NCBI GenBank assembly: GCA_016793095.1
Contig: JAEUJQ010000020.1
Span: forward strand, 1-64,000
DNA from: Myxococcaceae bacterium
Lineage (GTDB): Bacteria > Myxococcota > Myxococcia > Myxococcales > Myxococcaceae
Reading direction: 5' to 3'
Length of the DNA stretch: 64,000 bases
Shown here piece after piece: positions 55,232 through 64,000 of this stretch (positions within the stretch are counted from its first letter, which is position 1; every line of letters begins with the position of its first letter). A program made the translations under genes and the position numbers. The notes under the pieces are model-generated. The model was not told the origin of the DNA, ran no database searches, and saw only the letters and a program-made list of their open reading frames with translations.

Positions 55232-55381
55232 CGAGGTGTGATGCAAGCCGACACCACGCCGCCACGCTGACCGCTGGCTCGTGAAATCGGGTGGACATTC
55301 GAGCCCGAAATGCGCAGAACCACCGGCATTCTCGGTGGGCCCCCGCCTTCGGCCCGCCAGTCGCTCAAGGAGCCTTTCACC

Positions 55382-57232
55382 GTGAAAGCCCCCACCCGTC
55401 TGTCGCGGTCGATCGTCCTTGCGACGCTGCTGGCTGGCACCGCCGTCTTCGCCCAGGAACGAGGCAACTTCCCGGGCGATCGTTTCCGCATGTCGCTCTC
55501 GCGCTCGGGTCTGCTCGACGTCGAGTGGGGCAGCCCCGCGCCGCACCTCAACTGGGACGCGGGCCTCTTCCTCAATTTCTCGCAGAACAACCTGGTGCTG
55601 TACCGCATCAGCGACAACCAGCGCCTCGGGCCCCTCATCGGCACCCGCCTCGGCGCGTCGCTCTTCGGGACCATCGGCCTCTTCGACTGGCTCGAGGCCG
55701 GGCTCGAGCTGCCGGTGGTGCTGGTGCAGTCGCGCGAGCCCAGCCTGGCGGGTGGCACGGTGACGAACCTGTCGGCCCTGCAGGGCGGCCTGGGCGACCT
55801 GCGGCTGCAGCCCAAAATCCGCTTCTTCAGCCAGGAAGACGTGGGCTTCGACCTCGCGGTGATGCCGACGCTCACGTTCCCCACGGGGGGCCAGACGAAC
55901 TACCGCGGCGAGCCGTCCGTCACCTTCCAGCCCGAGCTGATCGCCTCGCGCGCCTTCGGCCAGGTGCGCACCGCGGTCAACGTGGGCGCGGTGATCCGCC
56001 GGCAGGTGGCCTTCATCGACGACGTGGTGGGCAGCGATCTCACCGCGCGGCTCGGCGGCGGCTACCGCTTCCACGACGACAAGGGCAACGGGCTGCCGCT
56101 CGAGCTCGACGCGTCGCTCTTCATGTGGACCGGCGTGACGGCCACCACCTACACGCCGTCGCAGCGCGGCATGGAGCTTCGCCTCATGGGCGCGTGGACC
56201 TTCGCCGAGCGCGTGCAGGTGTTCCTCGGCGGCGGCGTCGGGCTCCTCTCAGGCTGGGGCACCCCCGACTACCGGCTGTTCGCCGGCGTGCGCTATGGCC
56301 TCTGGGACGATCGGAAGGGCCCGAAGGACACCGACAAGGACGGCATCATCGACGAGCAGGACAAGTGCCTCGAGCTCGCCGGCATCGCCGAGAACGCCGG
56401 CTGCCCCGATCGCGACAGCGACAACGATGGCTTCGTCGATCGCCTCGACGCGTGCCCCGGCGACAAGGGCATCAAGGAGCTGAAGGGCTGCCCCGACGTG
56501 GACTCCGATGGCGACGGCTTCGTCGATCGCCTCGACAAGTGTCCGAAGGAGAAGGGCGTCAAGGAGCTCGACGGCTGCGCCGATCAGGACGGCGACGGCG
56601 ACGGCCTCGTCGATCGACTCGATCGGTGCCCCACCGAGAAGGAAGACGCTGACGGCTTCAAGGATGACGACGGCTGCCCAGACCCGGACAACGACGAAGA
56701 CGGCGTCACCGACGCCTCCGACAAGTGCCCCCTCGAGAAGGGCGTGGTCGAGAACAAGGGCTGCCCCGACAAGGACGAAGACGCGGACGGCGTGGTCGAC
56801 CGCCTCGACAACTGCCCCGGCGAGAAGGGCGAGGCGCAGTTCCAGGGCTGCAAGGGCAAGCAGTTCGTCGTGCTGACGAAGGAGCGCCTCGAGATCATCG
56901 CCCCCGTCTTCTTCAAGGTGGGCAGCGACGTGATCGAGGCCCGCAGCTTCGCGCTCCTCGACAACGTCGGGAAGGTGCTGACCGCGCACCCCGAGGTGGC
57001 GAAGGTGCGCGTCGAAGGCCACACCGACAACCAGGGCGACCCGAAGAAGAACCTCGAGCTGTCCGAGCGCCGCGCCAACTCGGTCAAGAAGTACCTGGTC
57101 GAGAAGGGCAAGGTGGCCGCTGAGCGCCTCGAGGCGAAGGGCTTCGGCGACACCCAGCCGATCGACGACAACAAGACGAAGCAGGGCCGCGAGAAGAACC
57201 GCCGCGTTGTCTTCAGCATCGTGGAGAACTGA
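55382..57232 (+). CDS. OmpA-family outer-membrane protein with TSP3 repeats
   Basis: Start GTG 55382 with AGGAG nine bases upstream; signal peptide to about residue 24 (VLATLLAGTAVFAQ). Residues ~25-310 are a beta-barrel-like domain. Residues ~315-495 hold six or so calcium-binding thrombospondin-type-3 repeats (DRDSDNDGFVDRLDACPGDK style). A C-terminal OmpA domain (~505-616: FFKVGSDVIEARSFALLDNV, VEGHTDNQGD, ERRANSVKKYL) binds peptidoglycan. It is 616 residues long and 3 nt upstream of a giant TSP3 protein, likely its partner. Confidence 0.9.
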   Translation: MKAPTRLSRSIVLATLLAGTAVFAQERGNFPGDRFRMSLSRSGLLDVEWGSPAPHLNWDAGLFLNFSQNNLVLYRISDNQRLGPLIGTRLGASLFGTIGLFDWLEAGLELPVVLVQSREPSLAGGTVTNLSALQGGLGDLRLQPKIRFFSQEDVGFDLAVMPTLTFPTGGQTNYRGEPSVTFQPELIASRAFGQVRTAVNVGAVIRRQVAFIDDVVGSDLTARLGGGYRFHDDKGNGLPLELDASLFMWTGVTATTYTPSQRGMELRLMGAWTFAERVQVFLGGGVGLLSGWGTPDYRLFAGVRYGLWDDRKGPKDTDKDGIIDEQDKCLELAGIAENAGCPDRDSDNDGFVDRLDACPGDKGIKELKGCPDVDSDGDGFVDRLDKCPKEKGVKELDGCADQDGDGDGLVDRLDRCPTEKEDADGFKDDDGCPDPDNDEDGVTDASDKCPLEKGVVENKGCPDKDEDADGVVDRLDNCPGEKGEAQFQGCKGKQFVVLTKERLEIIAPVFFKVGSDVIEARSFALLDNVGKVLTAHPEVAKVRVEGHTDNQGDPKKNLELSERRANSVKKYLVEKGKVAAERLEAKGFGDTQPIDDNKTKQGREKNRRVVFSIVEN

Positions 57233-57235
57233 GAG

Positions 57236-60200
57236 ATGAACACCATGACGAACGACTCCACGCGCACCCTCGTGAAGCGCCTGCTGCTGCTGACGGCGCT
57301 CGCCGCGCCCGCGCTCGCCCTCGCCCAGCCCGCCGCCCAGTGCGCGCTCGGCGGGCCCTCCTCCGTCGTGCGCGGCCAGGCCTTCACGCTCGACGTCGAT
57401 CTGTCGAACCCGGGCACGGCGACGGGCTACGCGCCGGCCGTCGAGCTCTTCCTTCCCCCGGCCTTCACGCTCGGGGCGGCCACCGCCTTCGGTCAGACGC
57501 TGACGCCGGTGGCGAACACCACCACCACGCCCTTCGTGAACCCGCTCACGGGCGAGACGGTGCAGGGGCCTGCGGGCGCGCGCTACGTCGTGCTGCGCTA
57601 CCCCATCAACCACGTCGCCGGCGGCGCCGGGGCCCAGCGGCTCACCGTGGTGTTGACGAGCACGACCAGCGCCACCCTCGACACGGCCGTGAACGTCGCA
57701 GCCACCTGTCTCTTCGCGTACGGCGCGACCCCGCTCAACGACCCCCAGGCCGACGCGCCCGTGCGCAGCGACCTCGCCGTGAACGCGAACGACCAGACGA
57801 CCCGCGCCTTCACGCCGGTGGGCGCCCTCGTCACCGGCCGCTTCGAGCGCGTCACCCCCGCGGGCGTGGTGACCGACGCGGTGACCGGGCCCCGCACCCT
57901 GGTCGAGGCCGTGTACGAGATCGACGCGATGGTGGGCACGACCATCTCCGCGGCGAGCGCGATCATCACCCTGCCCGACGCCTTCCAGCTCGTCTCCGCG
58001 ACCGCGGCGGGCGGCACCGTCAGCAGCGTGCCCGCGGCGCCCGCCTCAGCGCCGGGCGGCACGGTCACCGTCACCTATGCGTCCATCGCCGGCGTCGCAG
58101 GCGTCGATCGCGCCATTCGCGTGCGCGGCTTCATCTCGCAGAACCGCACCGGCGGGACTCCAGCCATCAACCCGATGACGCTCACGCCCATCACCGTGGC
58201 TCCGCAGCTGTCGCTGTCGGGCAGCGGCCTGCCGGCGCCGGTCACCGGCCAGGCCGCGCTGCGTGGCCACGCGGTGCTCGTGCGCGAAACCGTGAACACC
58301 GCGGCGCCCCTGCCCGGCGCCACCGTGACGATCACCCAGGTCGTCGAGCAGTCGGACTTCTTCGGCACCACCGCGAACGACGTCACCACCACGCTGCCCG
58401 CGGGCCTCACCTACGTCGCCTCGTCTTCGATGCCGCTGACGCCCGTGGTGAGCGGCTCCACGCTGGCTTTCCCCTTCGGGGGCCTCGCGCAGGTCGGCAT
58501 GGGCGACACCTCGCCGGCGTCGAGGACCAACGCCTTCGACGTCACCGTCGAGCAGGCGTACCCCAGCGCCGGGCCTGTCTTCGGCGGCGATCGCCTGGCC
58601 ACCGTGCACTCGCTCGCGTCCACCACGACGGCGGCGGCCACGCGGACCCAGACCGAAGCGGCCAGCGGCACCGACGCCACGCCCGCCATCCCGCAGGCGA
58701 CCCTCACCGCGGCGGCGCTCGTGGCAGGCGTGCCGGTCTCGACGGTCAAGGCCGGCGACGTCGTCACCTTCCGCGTCACGTCCACCCTCACCTCAGGCGA
58801 TCACGACGGCGAGGTGTGGTCGATCGCCCTGCCCGCGCCGCTCTTCGACGCCAGCGCGCTGAGCGGCGCCATGTTCGGGGGCGCGGTGGTGCGGTACGGC
58901 GCGGGCGCGACCGCGGGGCTGCCGACCAACGTCACGGTCACCGCCAGCGCCGCCACCAACAGCGTCACCCTCACCTTCCCACGCATCTCGGGAGGCACGC
59001 CGCCCATCACCGTCGAGGTGGAGCTCGACGTCACCGCCACCGCGAACCCCATCGACGACGCCTTCGTGGTGGTGACGCCCGTCGTCTCGACGCACACGGG
59101 CACGATGCAGACGTACACGCGCACCGCCGCGCCGGCCCTCACCGTCCAGTCGCCCAACCTGCGCGCGATCACCGCGGCCTTCGCCTCGAGCACCACCGAC
59201 GCGGTGTTCACCCCGGCCGCCACCGTGACGCTGCCCAGCCCGCTCACCTCGGCCAACCTGGCGACGGTGGCGAACTCCAACGTCGCGGCCGTGCACGCCC
59301 AGGGCACGGTGGACGTGCGGCTCCTCGTCGAGAACCGCGGCGCTCTCGAGGCGCGCGACGCCCGGGTGAAGCTGGTGTTGCCCGCGGGCCTCAGCGGCGC
59401 CCTCGTCTCGGCCACCGACGGCGTGGGCACGGCCACCCCCACCACCGGCGATCTCTTCGGCGCCGGCCTCGACTTCACCGATCCCATCGCGGCCTCGAGC
59501 CCGTCGAGCGGCCTCAACCTGCGCGTCGTGGTGGCGCGCCTCACCGTCGCCACCGGGCTGGCGCCCCGCTTCGATCTCGTCTCGAACGGGCAGCTCGAGC
59601 GCTTCGCCTCGGCCGCCGGCGGCGGCAACTTCGTCGGCAACCCCGCGGCCACGGCCGAGCCCGTCACCATCAGCACCCGCGCCGCCAGCGCAGGCGTGGT
59701 GCTGACGATCCCCGACACCGCCGCCACCATCGGCGAGACGTTCGGCTACGTCGTGAGCGGCGTGGTGCCGAACGGCGCCACCATCGCCTCGCTGCCGGTG
59801 ACGATCGCCCTGCCCAGCCAGCTCGCCTTCGTCTCGGCGATGAGCCTGACGGCGCCCGCGGCCATCACCTGCGGCGGCGCGGCGTGCACCCTGCCCACGC
59901 CGGTGGTGACGAACGAGGGGCGCGACGTCACCTTCACCTTCGCCAACGTGGCCAACGCCGACACTGACATCGGCACCGTCGAGGAGCTGGCCTTCACGGC
60001 GACGGTCGTCGTCAACAACGTCGCCAGCGCCACCGCCGGCACCACCAACCTCAACGTCAACACCGGCTTCGCGGGAGCCACCTCGACGACCGACGCCGGG
60101 TCCCGCGTGCGGATCGTCGAGCCGGCCATGTCGTTCGGCGGCGTCAACACCGACGGCGGCGCGCTGCCCGATGGCGGCAGCGTGATCGACTCGTCGGACC

Positions 60201-63200
60201 TGGTGGTGGTGACGGTGCCGGTGCGCGTCGCTGGCGGCGCGAACAACGTCTCGCCGCACGACGTGTCGATCTCCGTCGCCTTGCCGGTGCAGCTCACCGC
60301 CGAGCCCGGCAGCCTCTTCGTCGACTCGCGTTGCCCGATGCCCGCGACCCAGTCGCTGGTGGACGCCGGCCTGTCGATCACCTTCCCGACGCTCGCGGTC
60401 GGCGACGCCGGCGCCTGTGACGTCGGCTTCACGGCCCGGGTCGGCCAGAACGTCACCTATGGGCAGCAGCTCTCGCCGCTCGCGACGCTGACCTGGACGA
60501 GCCGCATGGGCGTCGTCAACATGCCCGTCAGCACCTACTCGGCGACGACGGTGGAGCGCACCGGCAACGGGAGCGATCCCGGCGGCACCGCCAACAACTA
60601 CCGCGTGACGGCGACCGGCCCGGTGCGCATGGCGACCTCGGCGACCAGCGCCTTCACGCTGGTGAGCACCACCAACCCGGCGACGGCAGCCAACCTGCTG
60701 GCGGTCGGTGAGGATCTGGTGCTGCGCTTCCGCGTCGATCTCGCCGAGGGCACGCACCCGAGCCTGTCGTTCCGCTTCACGCCGCCGCCCATGTTGGGGG
60801 TGCGCCGCGTCGAGCTCGACACCATGACGCCGGGCTTCACCGGAGTGATCGCCAACCCGGCGCCGATCGTCCCCACGGGCACCGCGGGCGCGGTGGTGAC
60901 GGCCTCGTTCGGCGCGATCACCGTGCCGGGCGACAACCTGGCGACCAACAACCAGCTCGACCTGTTGGTGACCGTGCGGAACGTCGCGCTCAACTCCGCG
61001 ACCACGGCGACGATGCAGGGCCTGCCGCAGAGCGGGGGCTCGGCGCTGGGTCCGAGCGCGCCCTTCGACGTGCTCTTCGCCGCGCCCCGGCCCCGCCTGA
61101 CTCCCAGCGTGGACAACCCATCGCCCGGACCAGACGCGGGCGTCGTCCTCACCGCGGCCCTCGCCAACCTCTCGCTCAACTCGCAAGCAGACGGCGGCGG
61201 CCTCGAGCAGACGACGGTGGCCTGCAACGTGCCGGTGTCGATCGCGACGCCGGCTGGCTTCTCCATCGTCGCGCCCGCGACCGATGGCCTCGACAACGAC
61301 GACAACGGCATGACGGACGACGCGCCCGAGGCCAGCCTCGTGTCGGGCTCGACCTTCGTCTTCAACTCCAACCGCTGCCTGAACCCCGGTGAGCGCCTGT
61401 CGTTCCGCGCCAGCTTCCGCTCGGCGCAGACGATCCAGGGGGTGCCGGTGAACTTCGACAGCACCATGGGCACCTACCTGACCGCGGCGATGGGCGGCAC
61501 GACGTTGAGCCCGGCGAACGACGCGTTCGACAACAACGGCAACTCGGTGGTGGACGAGACGACGCCCGTCGCCGATGGCATCGCACGGGTGGTGGTGACG
61601 CCGAACGTGCCGCGCCTGGGCTTCACGCTCGTCGGCCGCAGCGCGCTCGACGGCGGAGCCTCGGTGGTGGCCGGCGACGACGTTCGCTGGACGGTGCGGC
61701 TCATCAACACCGGCGTCGGCGATCTCACCAACGTGCGCATCGAGGTGCCCTTCGCCCCGTTGACCACCTACGTCGCGGACTCGGGGACAGCGACGAGCGG
61801 CACGCTCAGCCTCACCATGACGGGCCTCGCGGTGGACGTCGGCACGGTGCTGGGCTGCCCGGCCTTGCCCGACGGCGGCCCCGGCACCACCTGCCCCACC
61901 ATCGACGTGGCGCTCGACTCGACCACCTCGCGGCGCATTCCCAACGACGGCGGCGTCGAGACGCAGGCGCGGCTGACCGCAGATCCGCCCTTCGCGCTGC
62001 TCCTGTCCGACAACCCCGCGACCGCGGCGCCCGTCGATCCAACCCGGGTGCGCGTGCTGAACACCCCCGACGTGGACGGCGACGGCGTGCTCAACGGCGC
62101 CGATCGCAACGCCAATAACCCGGCTTCGTGCAGCGACGTGGACGGCGATGGCTGTGACGACTGCGCGGTGGCCCTGAACCAGCAGCCCTCCAACGACGGG
62201 CCCGACGGCGACGGCGATGGCATGTGCGACTCGGGAGATCCGACGCCCAACGACGTGGACGCCGACGACGACGGCCTCACCGACGGCGCCGAGCGAGACC
62301 CGTTGTCGGACACCGACGGCGACGGCCTGGTGAACGTGCTCGATCCTGACTCCGACGACGACGGCCTCTTCGACGGCACCGAGGCCGGCGTGGCGACCGC
62401 CAGCATGGGCACCGACGCCTCGAAGGGCGTCTTCGTCGCCGACGCAGATCCGGCCACCACCACCGACGTGCTGCGCGCCGACAGCGACCGGGGCGGCCGC
62501 ATCGACGGCACCGAGGACCTGAACCGGAACGGGCGGGTGGACCTGGGCGAAGGGGACCCGAACGCGCAGGGCGACGACGCGGCCCAGACGGACACCGACG
62601 GTGATGGGTTGTCCGACGCCGACGAGACCGCGCGCGGTCTGCCGGTGAACGACGCCGACGCCGATGACGACGGCATCGTGGATGGCAAGGAGCCCAACCC
62701 CACCACCAACAGCGACGGCGATGGGCTGCTCACCAACATCCTCGACCCCGACTCCGACAACGACGGCCTGTTCGACGGGACTGAGGTCGGCGTCACGACG
62801 CCCTCGAGCGGCACGCTCCTGGCGCGACGCCGCTTCATCGCAGACGCGGATCCCACCACGCGCACCGCGGTGCTGCGCGCGGACACCGATCGCGGCGGCG
62901 TCATCGACGGCCTCGAAGATCTCAACCTCAACGGGCGCAGCGATCAGGGCGAGCGCAACCCCGGTGACGGCCCCGACGATCTCGTCGCCACGATCGACAC
63001 CGATGCCGACGGCATGGCCGACGCGCTCGAGGCGTTCCTGGGCACGAACCCGCGCGATCGCGACAGCGACGACGACGGCGTCATCGACTCGGCCGAGCAG
63101 CACTTCTCGGACGACACCGACGACGACGGGCTCATCAACGCGCTCGACGCGGACTCCGACGACGACGGCGTCTTCGACGGCACCGAGCTCGGCGTCACCA

Positions 63201-64000
63201 TGCCCAGCATGGACACGAACGAGACCCGCAAGGCCTTCGTGCCCGACGCCGACCCCGCGACGCGCACCAGCCCGCTCGCGGCCGACTCCGATCGCGGCGG
63301 GAAGACCGACGGCTTCGAGGACGTGAACGTCAACGGGCGCGTCGATCAAGGCGAGACGAACCCCGGCGACCCCGCCGACGATCAGGGCGCGATCGCCGAC
63401 GCTGACAGCGACGGGCTGCCCGACGCCGCCGAGATGCGCCTCGGCTCGAACCCGAACGACGCGGACTCCGACGACGACGGCCTGCCCGACGGCAAGGAGC
63501 CCAACGCTGCGCTGGACGCGGACGGCGACGGGGTCAACAACCTCAACGACCCTGACAGCGACGGCGACCGCCTCTTCGACGGGACCGAGGCGGGGGTCAC
63601 CACGGCGCCTGCCGGCACCGACACCGCGCGCAACTTCTTCATCGCTGACGCCGACCCCGCGACCCGCACGCTGGTGCTGGTGGCGGACACCGATCGCGGC
63701 GGCATGGGCGACGGGGCCGAGGACGTCAACCGGAACGGCCGGGTGGACATGGGCGAGACCGATCCGCTCCTCAAGGCTGACGACCGCCCGCTGCAGGACA
63801 GCGACAACGACACCATTCGTGACGTGGACGACGGCTTCCAGGACACCGACGGCGACGGCACCGCGAACTGGCTCGACACCGACTCCGACGGCGACGGCAT
63901 CTCCGACGCGGCCGAGGCGGGCGACACCAGCCCCGCCACCGCGCCCATCGACACGGACCGCGATCTGACGCCTGACTTCCTCGATCTCGACTCCGATGGT
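57236..64000 (+). CDS. Giant secreted DUF11-like/TSP3 surface protein (3' end outside window)
   Basis: The frame is open from ATG 57236 to the window edge (2255 codons, no stop). It starts with a signal peptide (LVKRLLLLTALAAPALALAQ). Residues ~25-1600 are repeated beta-rich modules of the DUF11/isopeptide-like surface class. From ~1610 onward come TSP3-type calcium repeats, including four 134-residue modules carrying LFDGTE and DRGG...DGxEDxNxNGRxDxGE. The ATG is 3 nt after the OmpA/TSP3 stop, so the two form an operon. It is probably a large adhesin or sheath protein. A C-terminal sorting signal such as MYXO-CTERM could lie beyond 64000; this cannot be seen. Confidence 0.85.
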   Translation, partial: MNTMTNDSTRTLVKRLLLLTALAAPALALAQPAAQCALGGPSSVVRGQAFTLDVDLSNPGTATGYAPAVELFLPPAFTLGAATAFGQTLTPVANTTTTPFVNPLTGETVQGPAGARYVVLRYPINHVAGGAGAQRLTVVLTSTTSATLDTAVNVAATCLFAYGATPLNDPQADAPVRSDLAVNANDQTTRAFTPVGALVTGRFERVTPAGVVTDAVTGPRTLVEAVYEIDAMVGTTISAASAIITLPDAFQLVSATAAGGTVSSVPAAPASAPGGTVTVTYASIAGVAGVDRAIRVRGFISQNRTGGTPAINPMTLTPITVAPQLSLSGSGLPAPVTGQAALRGHAVLVRETVNTAAPLPGATVTITQVVEQSDFFGTTANDVTTTLPAGLTYVASSSMPLTPVVSGSTLAFPFGGLAQVGMGDTSPASRTNAFDVTVEQAYPSAGPVFGGDRLATVHSLASTTTAAATRTQTEAASGTDATPAIPQATLTAAALVAGVPVSTVKAGDVVTFRVTSTLTSGDHDGEVWSIALPAPLFDASALSGAMFGGAVVRYGAGATAGLPTNVTVTASAATNSVTLTFPRISGGTPPITVEVELDVTATANPIDDAFVVVTPVVSTHTGTMQTYTRTAAPALTVQSPNLRAITAAFASSTTDAVFTPAATVTLPSPLTSANLATVANSNVAAVHAQGTVDVRLLVENRGALEARDARVKLVLPAGLSGALVSATDGVGTATPTTGDLFGAGLDFTDPIAASSPSSGLNLRVVVARLTVATGLAPRFDLVSNGQLERFASAAGGGNFVGNPAATAEPVTISTRAASAGVVLTIPDTAATIGETFGYVVSGVVPNGATIASLPVTIALPSQLAFVSAMSLTAPAAITCGGAACTLPTPVVTNEGRDVTFTFANVANADTDIGTVEELAFTATVVVNNVASATAGTTNLNVNTGFAGATSTTDAGSRVRIVEPAMSFGGVNTDGGALPDGGSVIDSSDLVVVTVPVRVAGGANNVSPHDVSISVALPVQLTAEPGSLFVDSRCPMPATQSLVDAGLSITFPTLAVGDAGACDVGFTARVGQNVTYGQQLSPLATLTWTSRMGVVNMPVSTYSATTVERTGNGSDPGGTANNYRVTATGPVRMATSATSAFTLVSTTNPATAANLLAVGEDLVLRFRVDLAEGTHPSLSFRFTPPPMLGVRRVELDTMTPGFTGVIANPAPIVPTGTAGAVVTASFGAITVPGDNLATNNQLDLLVTVRNVALNSATTATMQGLPQSGGSALGPSAPFDVLFAAPRPRLTPSVDNPSPGPDAGVVLTAALANLSLNSQADGGGLEQTTVACNVPVSIATPAGFSIVAPATDGLDNDDNGMTDDAPEASLVSGSTFVFNSNRCLNPGERLSFRASFRSAQTIQGVPVNFDSTMGTYLTAAMGGTTLSPANDAFDNNGNSVVDETTPVADGIARVVVTPNVPRLGFTLVGRSALDGGASVVAGDDVRWTVRLINTGVGDLTNVRIEVPFAPLTTYVADSGTATSGTLSLTMTGLAVDVGTVLGCPALPDGGPGTTCPTIDVALDSTTSRRIPNDGGVETQARLTADPPFALLLSDNPATAAPVDPTRVRVLNTPDVDGDGVLNGADRNANNPASCSDVDGDGCDDCAVALNQQPSNDGPDGDGDGMCDSGDPTPNDVDADDDGLTDGAERDPLSDTDGDGLVNVLDPDSDDDGLFDGTEAGVATASMGTDASKGVFVADADPATTTDVLRADSDRGGRIDGTEDLNRNGRVDLGEGDPNAQGDDAAQTDTDGDGLSDADETARGLPVNDADADDDGIVDGKEPNPTTNSDGDGLLTNILDPDSDNDGLFDGTEVGVTTPSSGTLLARRRFIADADPTTRTAVLRADTDRGGVIDGLEDLNLNGRSDQGERNPGDGPDDLVATIDTDADGMADALEAFLGTNPRDRDSDDDGVIDSAEQHFSDDTDDDGLINALDADSDDDGVFDGTELGVTMPSMDTNETRKAFVPDADPATRTSPLAADSDRGGKTDGFEDVNVNGRVDQGETNPGDPADDQGAIADADSDGLPDAAEMRLGSNPNDADSDDDGLPDGKEPNAALDADGDGVNNLNDPDSDGDRLFDGTEAGVTTAPAGTDTARNFFIADADPATRTLVLVADTDRGGMGDGAEDVNRNGRVDMGETDPLLKADDRPLQDSDNDTIRDVDDGFQDTDGDGTANWLDTDSDGDGISDAAEAGDTSPATAPIDTDRDLTPDFLDLDSDG
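62190..63800 (+). repeat. Four tandem 134-codon modules in the giant protein
   Basis: The anchor codons for G/R-L/V-F-D-G-T-E begin at 62363, 62765, 63167 and 63569, exactly 402 bp apart each time. Each module also carries a DADP.TRT element and a DRGG...DLNxNGRVDxGE element. Sequence between anchors has diverged, with small compensating indels, but net spacing is invariant. Confidence 0.88.

Follow-up and report, generated by a model that had tools for sequence, protein, structure and literature searches.

The window, a stretch of 64,000 nucleotides from a contig of a Myxococcaceae bacterium, holds two adjoining genes on its forward strand. The first (55310–57232), referred to here as the partner gene, encodes 640 residues comprising a signal peptide, a TraB-like outer-membrane barrel, TSP3 repeats and a C-terminal OmpA domain, as assigned from the open reading frame, Pfam, NCBIfam, an AlphaFold2 (AF2) model and fold matches. 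Its stop codon is separated by three bases from the start (57236) of a giant gene, whose frame is still open at the window end (64000). The contig extends past the window, and the C terminus, which a sequence-only reading of this DNA had proposed to seek there, was found at a stop codon at window-equivalent position 64648 on the same contig, giving a putative surface protein of 2470 residues in full. The barrel gene comes first, and in the congeners L084 and L085 the two genes overlap.

The partner and the giant protein

The barrel domain of the partner (55457–56314, from the mature N terminus to the last strand) was delimited by alignment A2, the AF2 strands and fold matches; in the AF2 model, the N-terminal half of the protein forms a barrel of about 12 strands. 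Pfam places OmpA at residues 534–631 (whole-protein E = 4.8e-24) and also reports TSP_3, in agreement with the earlier description of the operon partner as an OmpA/TSP3 protein, and the OmpA end (56870–57229) resembles known peptidoglycan binders (5wtp, Z 18.7). What that description missed is the N-terminal barrel, the kinship to TraB and the fused relatives treated below. The best NCBIfam match of the partner is TraB (NF033763) at 314 bits, below the cut-off of 700, while the positive controls L178 and L173 reached 1027 and 950 bits, beside TraA proteins at 1163 and 998 bits. The domain order, with the signal peptide judged by eye, is that of TraB, namely signal peptide, barrel, TSP3 and OmpA. 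In a tree of 122 barrels, the eight TraA-linked barrels form one clade (100/100) and the window barrel belongs to another; the label TraB was rejected for the partner on both counts, score and position. The source genome (G000) has 24 matches to the TraB profile, some proteins being matched twice and none lying above the cut-off, and nine barrels by profile A2; TraA above cut-off is absent from it.

The N-terminal part of the giant protein (57236–62000, limits approximate) consists of a signal peptide and an Ig/DUF11-like region with similarity to isopeptide-type domains, based on weak, sub-cut-off matches to DUF11 (Pfam) and TIGR04226 (NCBIfam). The four TSP3 super-modules described in the next section are followed by plain TSP3 repeats (63860–64000), recognized by sequence pattern, which continue beyond the window to a MYXO-CTERM-like tail at L009:7557-7646. 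The bacterial TSP3 repeat model PF18884 scores 20.1 on the window part of the protein (gathering score 25), and the DxDxDG pattern is plain. The tail, GGGCSSAGLGLLPLGLALLALRRRRQQP, combines a Cys motif, a hydrophobic helix and an Arg-rich end at the C terminus, and a similar type of tail occurs in the congener proteins L084 and L085. The MYXO-CTERM tag that the sequence-only reading had suggested looking for is thus present by pattern, but both NCBIfam models stay below their cut-offs, with 17.7 for TIGR03901 (cut-off 20) and 13.6 for TIGR03382 (cut-off 15.85).

On the minus strand, a 1735-residue open antisense frame (58793–64000) covers most of the giant gene. Frames of this length are expected because GC3 of the coding strand is high, and the long antisense ORFs across the giant gene were set aside as GC-rich shadows.

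The 134-residue TSP3 modules

Four super-modules of 134 residues each follow one another on the forward strand, at 62252–62653, 62654–63055, 63056–63457 and 63458–63859, as defined by motif spacing, alignment and a sequence profile. The motif D.DRGG recurs at residues 1749, 1883, 2017 and 2151, NGR.D.GE at 1765, 1899, 2033 and 2167, and DADP at 1736, 1870, 2004 and 2138, in each case in steps of exactly 134 residues (402 bp), so that the exact spacing claimed by the sequence-only reading holds for all three motifs in four of four copies. The common motifs LFDGTE and DADPxTRT named in the same reading do recur, in a slightly idealised wording, since the sequence reads VFDGTE in module 3 and DADPATTT in module 1. 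The other window modules are 56–60% identical to module 1 and contain small indels that compensate, which is why its wording of an invariant net spacing despite divergence was the right one.

The proposal of a fixed structural repeat larger than a single TSP3 unit gained support from the AF2 model of modules 2 and 3, which is confident (pLDDT 95.1, pTM 0.89) and in which helices recur at +134 residues (41/175, 85/219, 106/240 and 123/257); this model, calculated for the protein only, contradicts the view that merely irregular, independent TSP3 units are present. The underlying alignment had 51 rows, most of them from pairs picked for near-134 spacing, and many acidic positions are invariant across these aligned rows. 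The TSP3 modules may bind calcium. The best Foldseek match of the module model is COMP (E 2.5e-5), with local TSP3-type matches to COMP and thrombospondin. The DxDxDG-type acidic repeats are common to the window protein and the type 3 repeats of thrombospondin and COMP, while the 134-residue super-unit differs from the thrombospondin arrangement, and no whole-module match was obtained among solved structures (TM 0.13). A PDB sequence search with the four modules gave no match, and a search with the module profile only three weak, partial ones, to lanmodulin, an EF-hand protein and a biofilm-associated protein. The structural search with the module pair returned no chain with Z ≥ 5 (best 4.2 over 63 residues), a result that does not establish a new fold.

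The module profile was built from the four window copies and matches these by construction. It detected at least four copies in each of the six congeners (6/6, E 4e-47 or better) and, among the matches listed, two proteins from another genus (G007) with 12 copies apiece; at least 38 of 60 genomes, the source genome included, had a module match at E ≤ 1e-6. As judged from this recurrence in congeners and in another genus, the module repeat is not a product of chance. Spacing is near-exact (396–411 bp) in the congeners as well as in the G007 proteins with 12 copies. Window module 2 shares 87% identity with the second copy in the congener L011 but only 57–60% with the other three window modules (1, 3 and 4), and the copies are therefore older than the split of these species. 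The two proteins of the other genus, L089 and L090, are paralogous giants with 12 listed copies each versus four in the genus of the window, and accordingly the length of the stalk differs between genera.

Further away, a scan of named genomes was carried out, from which 80 of at least 108 confirmed loci were taken. Module loci (at least 80) occur in Sorangium and Polyangium and reach as far as a few archaea and Bacteroidota. In these distant genomes, 49 of 134 successive module pairs are 132–136 residues apart and the remainder are widely spread; the sharp peak at 133–135 residues contains 39 of the 134 pairs (both counts from 80 of at least 108 loci). A phylum-wide fixed spacing was weakened as a candidate rule, for it rested on 48 of 61 pairs with a filter of 120–140 residues, against 49 of 134 unfiltered. 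Outside the close relatives, the 134-residue spacing is a preference and not a rule.

Fused and adjacent relatives of the barrel

The search with profile A2 yielded 127 barrels in 14 genomes, which had been chosen from those with module matches and are not a random sample; 122 were examined, leaving out the weak matches G021:C11 and G007:C77 and the contig-end fragments C965, C986 and C150 of G009. In 29 of the 122, picked by eye and partly on the junction itself, the barrel is fused in frame behind a long coding passenger, with at least one such case in each of the 14 genomes. The source genome also carries a fused ORF with a giant part and a barrel part (L074), as do other genera. A further 19 fused rows came from the module scan (80 of at least 108 loci) by a fixed rule, and the resulting 48 rows represent 47 distinct proteins, L235 and L117 being identical.

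The junction has a constant order: a Cys motif comes first, followed by a hydrophobic helix and an Arg cluster, then by another hydrophobic helix with an A-x-A-like end, and finally by the mature barrel. That the two junction helices would be the sole hydrophobic segments of the fused proteins proved wrong, as further ones occur within the passenger in 36 of 48 rows, and for this reason the combined Cys/helix/Arg/helix pattern was used together with controls. It is present in 48/48 fused rows just ahead of the barrel, compared with 7 hits outside the junctions in 109,551 residues and 51 in 2,400 shuffled junctions; by the same test it was found in 5/93 unfused barrels (1/93 in a narrower slice), fused and unfused rows being related by descent. 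Under a plain rule, all 27 barrels with at least 700 in-frame upstream residues have the pattern. Among barrels with 300–700 upstream residues it occurs in 2/7 (L111 and L140, counted as fused), and L125, L135, L149, L172 and L090, which lack it, were counted as unfused, although L090 looked coding; L129 was counted as fused although only 3 of 12 upstream windows looked coding. Signal peptides, assessed from hydrophobicity and a permissive A-x-A pattern, were assigned in 47 of 48 rows, L216 being the exception. Six of nine junction fragments tried pass one of the two cut-offs of the NCBIfam MYXO-CTERM models; L094 and L099 fall short of them, and L074 matches neither model. The passengers L179:11490-17120, L074:4609-11661 and L097 start with a lipoprotein-type signal (a hydrophobic stretch and a Cys), and the surface part of these three proteins might be lipidated at both ends.

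On its well-supported branches, the barrel tree requires that the fused state was gained or lost at least seven times. Sister pairs document the change, with L171 fused and L172 split, and L179 fused and L182 split. In the fused sisters, the stretch with the upstream stop and the downstream start is largely missing, with the consequence that the Arg tail of the sorting tag almost directly abuts the signal peptide. In each pair, the segment of the split sister that matches the signal peptide at the join is thus a normal signal peptide at the N terminus. The dN/dS ratio of the junction is 0.35–0.70 in 7/7 pairs, which share sequences among them, and exceeds that of the barrel in five of the seven; these values fit selection acting on a joined protein sequence.

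Among the unfused barrels, 37 of 93 have, by a fixed rule, an adjoining same-strand gene with a MYXO-CTERM-like end, and 56 do not. Such an end was found in 38 of 88 adjacent genes versus 11 of 719 other genes of the same loci (Fisher p 7e-31, an optimistic value because the rows are related). A count by eye, from which the tree labels were taken and which is separate from the fixed-rule count, gave 42/93 unfused barrels with a MYXO-CTERM neighbour, 3 truncated at the end of a contig or locus and 48 with none. Many barrels are thus without a MYXO-CTERM partner (48/122 by eye; 56/93 unfused by rule), so the barrel also serves elsewhere. The module loci, 80 of at least 108 and some of them on short contigs, divide into 19 with a fused barrel, 9 with an adjacent one, 2 with one elsewhere and 50 with none. 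Downstream of the barrel gene in L103, L107, L110 and L073 lies a secreted family of about 390 residues, with endings like GKWFWRV.A.D..GF.G.PSKI, which overlaps the stop of some barrel genes and is possibly another kind of partner.

A proposed adhesin–anchor pair and its alternatives

On the basis of the observed sequence, gene order, adjacency, fusion, junction pattern and confident models of modules and barrel, we infer anchoring at the surface, binding of calcium, cleavage, contact of the two proteins with each other and a role in adhesion. It is reasonably probable, in our judgement, that the window holds the two-gene form of a TraAB-like adhesin–anchor family, a surface structure of the TraA/TraB type with a wall-anchoring barrel, whose fused members are probably cleaved polyproteins. 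The giant protein would be exported and would stay attached to the cell surface through its MYXO-CTERM tail. The C-terminal third would form a calcium-stiffened TSP3 stalk with the four fixed 134-residue modules, displaying an Ig/DUF11-type head. The barrel of the partner would sit in the outer membrane, with its OmpA domain gripping peptidoglycan, and would thus couple the giant surface protein to the cell wall. In the fused relatives, a single chain carries the MYXO-CTERM tag and, directly behind it, the signal peptide where the two parts meet, and would most likely be cut by myxosortase and signal peptidase to give two partners in a ratio of 1:1. Bradyrhizobium fbcH, with signal peptidase and cytochrome c1, is a precedent for this kind of processing. 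The source genome contains a gene for the myxosortase MrtX (338 bits, cut-off 180), and PMC11980579 describes MrtX as the enzyme that cleaves MYXO-CTERM tags, with lipidation and export by the type II system as proposed steps. Likewise, according to PMC12045341, a preprint, TraA and TraB form 1:1 complexes, with TraB proposed to hold them to peptidoglycan via OmpA. Against this main reading stand the gene order of the window (barrel first), which is the reverse of the fused order, the giant tail below the MYXO-CTERM cut-offs, the position of the window barrel outside the TraB clade, and the 50/80 module loci without a barrel (80 of at least 108, some loci cut short).

That the barrel is instead a dedicated secretion channel, FapF- or autotransporter-like, which passes the giant or the passenger across the outer membrane and is not an anchor, seems improbable. 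The nearest solved fold to the partner barrel is indeed FapF (5o65, Z 23.0), which works with Fap amyloid subunits, the autotransporter barrels NalP, EstA and EspP match at Z 16.5–19.3, and passenger and barrel are adjacent or fused; but with Z 22.5 the COG4313 channel 4rl8 is level with FapF, and values for porins go up to 19.8, so the fold does not single out secretion. Furthermore, the OmpA domain fits an anchor, an autotransporter would not be expected to have a second signal peptide between passenger and barrel, and the passenger ends in a MYXO-CTERM tag, proteins with which use the type II system according to PMC11980579.

A similarly low chance is given to a gliding-motility adhesin of the AgmC or CglD type, in which the stalk would grip the substrate and the barrel would link to the motor through the wall. 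The fused relative L099 passes the AgmC N-terminal domain model (399 bits, cut-off 275), as opposed to the fused paralogue of the source genome, L074 (172, below cut-off), and for the giant itself the label AgmC (NF047640) was rejected, its N-terminal domain being absent among the matches listed at E ≤ 1e-6. CglD, a gliding lipoprotein, has the bacterial TSP3 repeat type in common with the giant, which matches it across the TSP3 part with 186 bits; this is below the cut-off of 400, and the label CglD (NF033765) was discarded. The giant also differs in being longer than the 1124-position model, in its MYXO-CTERM tail and in its pairing with a barrel. In addition, CglD scores track TSP3 content and are an unreliable guide in this case: the fused L094:5616-12527 exceeds the equivalog cut-off over its TSP3 repeats (643 vs 400), so genes like it may be misnamed CglD in databases.

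Among the known systems near to the proposed pair are the fused MXAN_5598/AgmC-like proteins of Myxococcus, likewise composed of an adhesin part, MYXO-CTERM, barrel and OmpA, whereas in the window the two parts are encoded separately and in reverse order, and the head is another one. MXAN_5598 is mentioned in PMC11980579 and PMC4158809; the former calls the fusion atypical, compares it with TraA plus TraB, calls internal tags rare and reports an FtsZ-like neighbour as its context, with no mention found there, in the part accessible, of an internal signal peptide in the fusion. As this source, in its accessible part, notes only MXAN_5598, the fused form is known from one example. The head of L099 matches the AgmC model, and MXAN_5598 would by inference be AgmC. 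An FtsZ-like ORF, found by motif search, adjoins the fused loci L099, L100, L105, L106, L109, L115, L226, L238 and L243. These nine loci belong to several genera, and for the gene of a surface protein this position is odd as well as conserved. No FtsZ-like ORF was found in L171, L179 or L182, and L179 with its sisters was rejected as an orthologue of MXAN_5598.

MtsC and MtsD (NCBIfam names), TSP3 cohesion proteins, share with the giant that MtsC is a MYXO-CTERM TSP3 protein, and a local match of 81 bits covers the plain TSP3 end; this is below the MtsC cut-off (NF047638, 350), and the label was not retained. They differ in having loci of their own, MtsC and MtsD being adjacent in G028, G035 and G012. 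As a characterised barrel pair they were dropped, with MtsD absent among the A2 barrels in the four genomes passing the MtsD cut-off. MtsC-like fragments lie at the first bases of the G000 contigs C86, C67, C4 and C46, suggesting a multi-copy family that broke the assembly.

It is very unlikely that the fused ORFs give two proteins by internal re-initiation, in which case there would be no polyprotein and fusion would amount to mere loss of a stop codon. An ATG, GTG or TTG is found in 27 of 48 junction linkers, but ATG in only six; the dN/dS below 1 in 7/7 junction pairs speaks against it as well, and nothing would stop the ribosome from reading through. Least probable of all, and in our view highly unlikely, is outer membrane exchange or kin recognition by a system replacing TraAB in a genus without TraA: TraA lies above cut-off in 8/18 genomes searched and in 0/7 of the window's genus, and the two-part layout is that of TraAB, but PA14 and Myxo_Cys_RPT are absent among the matches listed for the giant, the window barrel is outside the TraB clade with its low TraB score (314 vs 700), and G009 holds both TraAB (L163) and a relative of the window barrel (L093).

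The likeness to TraA/TraB lies in a MYXO-CTERM surface protein gene beside a barrel–TSP3–OmpA gene, and PMC6372800 and PMC12045341 describe overlapping TraAB genes and a 1:1 complex. In the window, on the other hand, the gene order is reversed and a TSP3-module stalk replaces the Cys-rich repeats of TraA; the label TraA (NF033759) was rejected for the giant, being absent among the matches listed, with no TraA above cut-off in the source genome.

In the open-licence literature, as far as its text was accessible, the breadth of the fusions, their repeated gain and loss, the back-to-back signals and the split form were not found, and internal signal peptides in polyproteins only in a virus review. 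No paper was found there on a MYXO-CTERM polyprotein, on MtsC with MtsD or AgmC in Myxococcus, or on fbcH with signal peptidase and cytochrome c1.

Returning to the adhesin–anchor reading, we lean somewhat towards a general view for the Myxococcota, in which a MYXO-CTERM adhesin and a TraB-like wall anchor form a recurrent unit that has repeatedly changed between a two-gene and a one-gene state. The latter would be a polyprotein with sorting tag and signal peptide back to back, cut by two proteases to an exact 1:1 ratio, with TraAB and the window as separate branches. Should this hold, TraAB would represent a single branch within a large, mostly unstudied family of surface structures that couple tagged surface proteins to the wall. 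The back-to-back tags would then be cut sites, and the view that each fused ORF makes one giant protein would be corrected. The partnership is indicated directly by the fused members, and its stoichiometry is testable in cultivable myxobacteria. Along the same lines, the 134-residue module, with its copy number of four to twelve, offers a natural test of whether repeat number sets the length of the stalk.
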